From a virus, in the IMG/VR virus record IMGVR_UViG_3300046660_000171, positions 1 to 43,390 of that record: DNA of 43,390 bases; one strand, given 5' to 3'. Below the pieces are notes generated by a model. The model made no database searches. It worked only from the letters and a program-made list of their open reading frames with translations, and was not told the origin of the DNA. Positions 13,828 through 30,747 of this stretch are shown here, piece after piece; within the stretch, counting starts at the first letter, position 1, and every line of letters starts with the position of its first letter. Both the position numbers and the translations under genes were made by a program.

Positions 13828-14499
13828 ATGGGCGGCAAGGCATTGAAGACGAGATCGAAGGGTAACAAGGGCGCCGGCCGTCCTGAAAAACCATGTTCCA
13901 TCGACGGGTGCCAAGGTAATGCTCACCGGAGCGCCAAGGGGGCAAGAGGATATTGCGGCGCGCACTACTGGCGCCTTTCGAAACACGGCGACCCTCTCGG
14001 CGGAGGACCTTGCAGAGCAAAACCTGGAGAGCCGCAGCGCTTCATCCAGGAAGTAGCACTGCAGCACACTTCCGACGACTGCCTGATCTGGCCATTCGGG
14101 AAGAGCCGAGATGGCTACGGCATGGTCTTGATAGACGGCAAGAAGGTTGTTGCCTCCCGTTATGTCTGCGAACGCGCCCACGGCGCGCCTCCAACTCCCG
14201 AACACGAAGCCGCACACTCTTGCGGCAAAGGGCATCTCGGCTGCATCGCAGCGGGCCATCTTGACTGGAAGACGAGGGCCGATAACCAGGCAGACAGGTT
14301 GCTCCACGGAACCCATAGCCGAGGTGAGCGTAGCTACGGGGCCAAGCTGACCGAGGCCGACGTGCGCGAGATTAACAAGCTGAAGGGCGTTGAACGGCAA
14401 CGCAAACTGGCGGCGAGGTTCGGCGTCTCGCCTGCGACCGTCTCTCACATCCACAACGGCAGAATATGGGCTTGGCTATCACAAGGAGAAACGGCATGA
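13828..14499 (+). CDS. HNH homing-type endonuclease with C-terminal HTH
   Basis: 223 residues. The N-terminus has a Cys-rich region (PCSIDGCQGN, YCGAHYWRLSKHG). The core has CLIWPFGKSRDGYGMV, then EAAHSCGKGHLGCIAAGHLDWKT (HNH metal residues), followed by the C-terminal HTH (AKLTEADVREI, AARFGVSPATVSHIHNGRIW). This is the usual layout of phage HNH homing endonucleases, which cut a specific site and may spread themselves. It is inserted between the membrane protein and the next gene, with GAGG upstream. Confidence 0.85.
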   Translation: MGGKALKTRSKGNKGAGRPEKPCSIDGCQGNAHRSAKGARGYCGAHYWRLSKHGDPLGGGPCRAKPGEPQRFIQEVALQHTSDDCLIWPFGKSRDGYGMVLIDGKKVVASRYVCERAHGAPPTPEHEAAHSCGKGHLGCIAAGHLDWKTRADNQADRLLHGTHSRGERSYGAKLTEADVREINKLKGVERQRKLAARFGVSPATVSHIHNGRIWAWLSQGETA

Positions 14500-15137
14500 A
14501 GGCGGCAAAACTAAAGATTCGCAAGAACAGGAAAGCAGGCCGCCCGAGAAAGCAGAACGTCGAGCGCTACGCCAGTGGCGACATCAAGCGATCGGAAACC
14601 CAGCGCGAGGTAATGAGCGTCGCCATCGAGGCAAGGCGGCGTATCGACGGCTGGAGCGAGAAGGTGGCAGACGACACGGTCAAGAGCCCGTTCGCCGGTT
14701 ACACCCTCGGCCGCATCTTCCTCGATGGCAGGATCACCGAAGACCAGCGCAAGGCTGGCGACGAGTATGCCGAGATCATTAGCCGCTATCACCGTCTCAC
14801 CGGCATTCCGTTCCCGAGCGCCAGAGCGCAATCGCTATTCAGCGTCAAAGGCCATGACGGCGAACAGTCGGAGAGCGTCACCACAAAGGCCCGCAACGCC
14901 TCGAACGCGATGATGGAGGTTATCGGCGTCCTGCTACGCTGCGATGACGGCCCGCAGGTTCGTGCGCTCGTTCATAATCTCACGGTTATGGATTACGAAC
15001 ACCTCCGAGGAATGGGCGAACAGCAAATGTTGTGGCTGAGACGTGGTTTGACGGCATTGGCGCGGCGGAAGGACTTGCGTCAAGTAGGCAAATCAGATAA
15101 CCGTTGGGATATTAAATCATCAGAGATGTCTGCATAG
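14496..15137 (+). CDS. Phage protein with AT-hook-like N-terminus, 213 aa, end of the early right operon
   Basis: The ATG at 14496 has AAGGAG upstream. The N-terminal RKNRKAGRPRKQNVERY contains a GRPRK AT-hook-like element. Central parts (AGYTLGRIFLDGRITEDQRKAGDEYAEII) recur in Rhizobiales prophage proteins near the start of late genes. The last part is helical. The position before the terminator and structural genes makes a late regulator or antiterminator plausible, but no motif shows it. Confidence 0.7.
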   Translation: MKAAKLKIRKNRKAGRPRKQNVERYASGDIKRSETQREVMSVAIEARRRIDGWSEKVADDTVKSPFAGYTLGRIFLDGRITEDQRKAGDEYAEIISRYHRLTGIPFPSARAQSLFSVKGHDGEQSESVTTKARNASNAMMEVIGVLLRCDDGPQVRALVHNLTVMDYEHLRGMGEQQMLWLRRGLTALARRKDLRQVGKSDNRWDIKSSEMSA

Positions 15138-15138
15138 A

Positions 15139-15175
15139 ACCCGCCGCGCCTCTCAACGATGCGCATCAGGTGGGT
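15139..15175 (+). ncRNA. Structured RNA hairpin, copy A (conserved loop)
   Basis: ACCCGCC (15139-15145) pairs with GGTGGGT (15169-15175), and an inner GCGC/GCGC stem closes the loop CTCTCAACGAT (15150-15160). The same loop and a compensated stem occur at 30638-30675, both followed by CACTTAT. Just after the last early-right gene, further inverted repeats lead to the terminator at 15300. Function unknown; a cis-acting regulatory RNA is likely. Confidence 0.6.
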
Positions 15176-15299
15176 CACTTATCGGGAAGGCATCATCGTC
15201 TAGTCCGAGGCAAACGTCTCACTGAGCCAAAGGGCAAAATGACGCTCTGGTCCGAAGAGGGTGAGACTACCTTCGGGTCCTTCCCGTACCCATCACCTA
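15176..15299 (+). other. Structured non-coding leader between copy A and the terminator
   Basis: I see no gene. The segment has two inverted repeats: GTCTCAC (near 15212) with GTGAGAC (near 15260), and GGTCCGAAG (near 15250) with CTTCGGGTCC (near 15272), consistent with a folded leader before the late operon. Confidence 0.45.
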
Positions 15300-15329
15300 G
15301 CCCGCCAGGTTCGCCTCGGCGGGCGTTTT
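15300..15329 (+). terminator. Intrinsic terminator before the late genes
   Basis: GCCCGCC (15300-15306) and GGCGGGC (15318-15324) form a perfect 7-bp stem followed by GTTTTC. It separates the early right operon and the structured element from the late genes, so late expression needs either read-through (antitermination) or a separate promoter, and I find no obvious promoter between here and 15344. Confidence 0.75.
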
Positions 15330-30637: not shown

Positions 30638-30675
30638 ACCTGCCACGCCTCTCAACGATGCGCACCCCGGCGGGT
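30638..30675 (+). ncRNA. Structured RNA hairpin, copy B
   Basis: ACCTGCC (30638-30644) pairs with GGCGGGT (30669-30675), a CGC/GCG inner stem closes the loop CTCTCAACGAT (30649-30659). The two copies share 40 of 46 aligned columns over 15137-15181 and 30636-30681. Differences in the outer stem keep pairing (G-U in one copy, G-C in the other). It lies after the ejection genes on the rightward strand. Confidence 0.6.
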
Positions 30676-30722: not shown

Positions 30723-30747
30723 GGCGGGAGGGCACCACCCTCTCGCC
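30723..30747. terminator. Strong hairpin at the end of the leftward cassette
   Basis: GGCGGGAGGG (30723-30732) pairs with CCCTCTCGCC (30738-30747) with one wobble, loop CACCA. It sits immediately after the stop of the leftward gene at 30749-30997 and downstream of RNA copy B on the other strand. Tails are poor in T, so it may be a bidirectional terminator or part of a larger fold. Confidence 0.5.

Follow-up and report, generated by a model that had tools for sequence, protein, structure and literature searches.

In bacteria, the abiF RNA, a motif that was reportedly described by Weinberg et al. in 2017, is located just upstream of abiF, a gene that encodes a HEPN RNase (Abi_2). The RNA of C. 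difficile, RCd22, contains two abiF motifs, is located upstream of abiF and binds the AbiF protein, which is a top partner in the pull-down; it neutralises the toxicity of AbiF both in cis and in trans, the neutralisation being lost when the stem is broken and kept when the stem is rebuilt with other letters, while an anti-phage role of AbiF has been hard to show in this species (PMC12373285). In PbAbiF, one RNA is bound per monomer and the bases of the bulge inhibit the RNase, according to a review of the structural work (PMC12737573), and the AbiD/F proteins have been proposed as the ancestors of Cas13 (PMC12165695). RNAs that correspond to a part of a defence system have also been described in viruses: pseudo-ToxI of phage PhiTE is an RNA mimic of the ToxIN antitoxin (PMC3475682), and the Racrs, whose function has been shown, are RNA anti-CRISPRs made of solitary repeats (PMC10651486).

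The link between the RNA and abiF holds outside phages, since on two Legionella plasmids the RNA directly precedes an annotated gene of an Abi family protein. The 17-nt core of the phage copies that are described below also occurs in an RNA upstream of an AbiF gene of Rhizobiaceae (locus L176); the encoded protein has retained the R-x4-H HEPN motif and gives a match to the solved AbiF entry 8vz6 (E 9.6e-49). A separate observation concerns a Legionella israelensis plasmid (L430:1619-1713), where a RAGATH-13 ribozyme-like match, of 76.1 bits against a cut-off of 80 bits, precedes the abiF RNA by about 1.3 kb.

Two abiF RNAs in one phage record

The window, i.e. the whole stretch of DNA that we have analysed, comprises all 43,390 bases of an IMG/VR virus record and is of podophage type. 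Among its products are terminase, portal, scaffold, capsid, ejection, tail fibre and lysis proteins, and its relatives include temperate, integrase-encoding Rhizobium phages, RHph_N2 among them. The initial annotation had reported one hairpin that is present twice, and this is confirmed: copy A (15139-15175) and copy B (30638-30675) are both located on the + strand, at separate loci that are 15.5 kb apart. The annotation had also reported a common loop followed by CACTTAT; these are indeed shared, the shared part being longer than it had stated, with the core CGCCTCTCAACGATGCG plus CA, and GGGTCACTTAT following the stem. This 17-nt core occurs twice on the + strand and is absent from the - strand of the window; a chance origin is rejected, as about 5e-6 matches to a 17-mer are expected under a uniform-base model, against the two that are found.

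Both copies fold as predicted: an outer stem of 6 bp is followed by one unpaired 5' base, an inner stem of 3 bp (CGC/GCG), a loop of 11 nt, CTCTCAACGAT, and a 3' bulge of 4-6 nt. Scanned against all of Rfam, copy A matches RF03085, the abiF RNA, at 15140-15175 with 37.9 bits, which barely exceeds the curated cut-off of 37 bits, and copy B matches it at 30639-30675 with 52.5 bits; in a permissive scan, no other Rfam family matches the region of copy A up to E = 1. A tRNA identity has also been considered and set aside, with ARAGORN finding 0 tRNAs in the window. It is close to certain that both hairpins are abiF RNAs, being members of RF03085 by sequence and by structure. The record has no match to the Abi_2 protein (PF07751) anywhere along its length and, because the toxin gene is absent, the two hairpins stand outside any complete AbiF toxin-antitoxin system.

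The surroundings of the two copies agree with the initial annotation, which had placed both of them between genes on the rightward strand, copy A before a terminator and the late genes, and copy B after the ejection genes near a strong hairpin. The last early gene (14466-15137, + strand; ORF list and a PHROGs match, phrog_15385) has its stop codon 2 nt before copy A, which is therefore likely to be part of the 3' UTR of this gene; copy A is located upstream of a terminator-like hairpin (15309-15325, + strand), which is followed by the terminase and portal genes. Directly after copy A and outside the abiF motif, the fold delimits a further structured element (15181-15290, + strand), bounded by CGGGAAGG and CCTTCCCG, and positions 15181-15286 are 87% identical to RHph_N2, where the abiF RNA is missing. 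In relatives, these same ends flank different inserts, tRNA-like in part, as would be expected of a slot for exchangeable RNA modules. Copy B is situated between the ejection and virion genes and leftward ORFs, and a strong terminator-like hairpin (30723-30747, + strand), where a small RNA of about 110 nt might end, starts 48 nt past it. Neither copy has a T run, a separate terminator-like hairpin being located 3' of each, and no sigma-70-like promoter has been seen adjoining either of them. Elsewhere in the window, the C-terminal part of the protein encoded at 12712-13389 matches only the last domain of DnaA, i.e. its DNA-binding region, and the product is possibly a phage regulator or an origin-binding protein.

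Selection, distribution and movement of the viral RNA

The initial annotation had described the stem as compensated. The two window copies show this weakly by themselves, because their outer stems differ by one-sided wobble changes only (G-U against G-C, and C-G against U-G); it is in the homologues that both sides change, at six of the six outer pairs. These homologues with covariation, for which a search had been proposed, were found with a scan for the exact core, which yielded at least 119 viral stretches and 119 stretches from bacterial genomes, and with a second form of the core, TGCCTCTCAACGATGCA, which yielded 120 viral stretches. The covariation alignment comprises the two window copies and 66 viral sequences, 68 in all and each distinct; a minimum of 5 outer pairs was required for inclusion, a pre-selection that favours pairing. 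In this alignment, 90.2% of the cells pair, against 79.5% after shuffling, and each of the six outer pairs varies in both of its positions. The covariation score reaches 0.300, whereas shuffled sequences give 0.109, with 0 of 500 shuffles attaining the observed value, and sliding the partners gives no more than 0.161. The outcome is the same without the pre-selection, when all exact-core matches are taken and the 3' arms are swapped among sequences, in both viral sets and in bacteria. The conservation of the loop and of the inner stem is fixed by the search pattern, and has been excluded as evidence. Between co-directional genes, orphan RNAs are found on the sense strand in 75 cases and on the opposite strand in 5. 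Taken from comparative sequence data, these patterns indicate that the abiF RNA is under selection as RNA in viruses.

The presence of the toxin gene has been compared between bacterial and viral RNAs, counting only RNAs with the outer stem and AbiF genes within 1.5 kb. In bacteria, an AbiF gene accompanies 62 of 111 RNAs, and is located downstream on the same strand in 59 of the 62; among the viral matches listed, the gene accompanies 2 of 104 RNAs with the exact core and 0 of 114 with the TGCCTCTCAACGATGCA core, or 2 of 218 together, on contigs that may be fragments and with related phages counted repeatedly. When only loci with at least 1.3 kb of downstream DNA are considered, the figures are 50 of 81 for bacteria and 1 of 175 for viruses, again among the matches listed. 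Across whole records, the Pfam model finds Abi_2 in 2 of the 119 viral records among the matches listed (L042 and L096, which hold both the RNA and Abi_2), and in 0 of 40 further viral records; the 40 include four cultured phages with an abiF RNA, i.e. Pasto, PZL-Ah8, CGphi29 and S-CREM1, the RNA of Rhizobium phage Pasto being under the Rfam cut-off. No AbiF remnants have been found beside the viral RNAs. An abiF RNA without its toxin gene is thus the rule in viruses; in the literature that we have searched, which other papers could extend, there is no account of this as a phage pattern.

The core is tied to abiF genes, in identical form, in bacteria of several phyla. Among 151 sampled Rhizobiaceae genomes, Abi_2 is present in 9 and, under strict filters, the abiF RNA is present in 3. 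One viral contig without Abi_2 (L077:1855-1976, - strand) carries two abiF RNAs that are 82 nt apart, in tandem like RCd22 of C. difficile.

Orphan viral RNAs are frequently located next to tRNA genes: among the matches listed, 79 of 216 are at most 300 nt from a tRNA gene, about 28 being expected, and the abiF RNA of S-CREM1 lies inside a tRNA array. Nucleotide clustering of the flanks groups the viral loci into 73 contexts, one of which has 71 members; 17 of the 73 are near tRNA genes against an expected 4.2, a ratio that is somewhat generous because the expectation averages over the members of each context. A phage-encoded protein partner has been sought among the neighbours and discarded, as no neighbour family occurs in more than 6 of the 73 contexts.

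The sequence of copy B recurs with 100% identity in two other RNAs, over 52 nt in a phage record (G090) that is otherwise dissimilar to the window, with only faint protein similarity nearby, and over 46 nt in a prophage-like contig of Rhizobium lusitanum; each time, the RNA follows an early gene that belongs to a different family. With an RNA in a further record (G057), copy A shares 94% identity over 52 nt, and with one in an Endobacterium prophage about 90%. These alignments show that the abiF RNA moves horizontally as a small unit. There is no match to it in the closest sequenced relatives RHph_N2, RHEph18, Y1_10, Y25, I3_18 and I1_23. The RNA is also found in T7-like phages, in a cyanophage described as lytic and, with 54.9 bits, in Mycobacterium phage Thibault; blastn also gave matches in Pseudomonas N4-like phages, within an RNA polymerase gene, and in phage ZRG1, but Rfam confirmed neither and both have been dropped.

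Other structured RNAs have been observed as well. Thibault carries an orphan-looking, sub-threshold DUF3800-IV RNA (L425:4387-4468), a gut phage contig carries an orphan-looking DUF3800-VIII RNA of 76.7 bits near its abiF RNA (L427:3352-3415), and a viral contig with an abiF RNA also has a permuted tmRNA gene of 83 bits (L392:1145-1399). An unnamed structured RNA, with an outer stem GAGGCGA...TCGCCTC and an inner stem with two compensated pairs, is located in the same early-late slot of Rhizobium phages (L002:41124-41190, L003:24470-24541, L292, L293 and L294); in a Rhizobium lusitanum contig (L233), it comes directly after the abiF RNA.

Possible roles of the toxin-less RNA

The antidote RNA occurs without the toxin in nearly all of the phage contigs that have been checked, and it therefore probably lets phages disarm the AbiF defence; we consider it fairly probable that the phage abiF RNAs are decoy antitoxins that bind and silence the AbiF of the host, a role for which pseudo-ToxI and, in the case of CRISPR, the Racrs are precedents. 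The phage would transcribe the RNA during infection or in the lysogen, copy A being expected as the 3' UTR of the early gene, and copy B probably as a small RNA that ends at the next hairpin. The folded RNA would then bind the dimeric HEPN RNase AbiF in hosts with the AbiF type III toxin-antitoxin defence, presumably the AbiF of Rhizobiaceae, and would keep it inactive when the supply of the host antitoxin fails; because the phage RNA would keep AbiF inactive, the infection would not be aborted, to the benefit of the phage. Several observations count against a decoy: the presence of AbiF in only 9 of 151 sampled Rhizobiaceae genomes, the double motif of RCd22, the lack of a recognisable promoter, and the score of copy A near the cut-off.

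The hairpin might instead act in cis on transcription or on mRNA stability, as a terminator, a protector of the 3' end or a put-like antiterminator, with the abiF core being used other than for AbiF. Many copies end in a T-rich, terminator-like stretch, and copy A is located in a 3' UTR ahead of a terminator and the late genes; however, a terminator does not need the conserved loop, the window copies lack the T run and are each followed by a separate terminator-like hairpin, and the gene positions are unrelated between phages, so that we find a cis-acting element unlikely. Put-like RNAs modify RNA polymerase as paired stem-loops, close to where early transcripts begin; each window hairpin is single, one closing the early block and the other following the virion genes, and neither matches another family in Rfam. 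The put-like antitermination RNA of the initial annotation gains no support, the same RNA being found in unrelated phages, at many positions, often near tRNA genes, and preceding abiF outside phages; the processing signal and the packaging signal that it had also listed fare no better, given these varied positions and the abiF genes that follow the RNA outside phages. Its remaining candidate, a binding site for a phage protein, came closest as far as protein binding is concerned, although the protein to be expected is AbiF, a toxin of bacteria, instead of one made by the phage. Binding of some other host or phage protein that is common to many phages, for a function unrelated to AbiF, would fit the lack of AbiF near most phage copies, and the many copies beside tRNA genes could point to RNA processing; this is nevertheless rather improbable, as the phage loci have no neighbour gene in common, the identical core is tied to abiF genes across several bacterial phyla, and AbiF is a top partner in the pull-down with the C. 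difficile RNA (PMC12373285).

The RNA may also serve the lysogen, by protecting the prophage-bearing cell from the AbiF of other prophages or plasmids, so that the cell can lose or outlive them. Related Rhizobium phages carry integrases, copies occur in Rhizobium and Endobacterium prophages, and AbiF loci are found on plasmids; yet a lysogenic benefit is improbable in the T7-like phages and in the cyanophage described as lytic, and the molecular mechanism would be that of the same decoy, so that we give a purely lysogenic purpose very little weight. Even less credible is a relic of a former abiF module, from which the toxin gene was lost while the RNA was kept by chance: toxin genes are costly and could go first, and the two viral records L042 and L096 retain both parts, but AbiF remnants are absent beside the viral RNAs, the stems covary, the strand is strongly biased, and two different copies coexist in the window.

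Beyond the window, the decoy antitoxin may belong to a broader group. We suggest tentatively, as a possibility that falls somewhat short of even, that the abiF RNAs without a toxin gene are a class of phage counter-defence against AbiF that is widespread and exchanged horizontally, often located in or beside tRNA arrays and in small "RNA islands" with other orphan structured RNAs; some of them might neutralise AbiF in hosts of several phyla, given how little the core RNA differs between these. If phages commonly carry the antitoxin alone, selection for disarming AbiF would have acted on them for a long time, and this would indirectly support a genuine anti-phage role of AbiF in nature; with AbiF as a proposed ancestor of Cas13, its RNA antitoxin would be a forerunner of the Cas13 guide RNA. 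The phages would also offer a large natural set of candidate RNA inhibitors of AbiF, including those of the growable phages Mycobacterium phage Thibault, Rhizobium phage Pasto, Aeromonas phage PZL-Ah8 and cyanophage S-CREM1.

Comparison with known systems

The abiF sRNA of cyanophage S-CREM1 was noted as a single case, with no role given (PMC9964418); it belongs to the same Rfam family and its phage is also without an Abi_2 gene, but the paper describes neither a toxin-less pattern, nor a rule of tRNA neighbourhood, nor a role in counter-defence. The Racrs are likewise a solitary RNA part of a defence system in a virus without the protein genes; they differ in their target, the Cas proteins, and in that their function is shown (PMC10651486), the role of the phage abiF RNA being inferred. 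In pseudo-ToxI, too, a phage RNA resembles a type III antitoxin while the toxin is absent (PMC3475682), and the window hairpins are likewise antitoxin-like RNAs in a phage without the toxin; the two differ in the toxin family, ToxN against the HEPN protein AbiF, and in the RNA fold, and PhiTE, which was tested experimentally, needed repeat expansion.

The closest likeness is to the abiF RNAs of the AbiF type III toxin-antitoxin systems, RCd22 of C. difficile and AbiFr of PbAbiF, with which the window hairpins share the covariance model, the core, the loop and the stem. These systems have one RNA before the toxin gene, whereas the phage has no abiF gene and carries the RNA at two distant loci; RCd22 has two linked abiF motifs, and most phage loci have one. 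The core of the phage copies is identical to the cores of RNAs that are located directly upstream of bacterial abiF genes.
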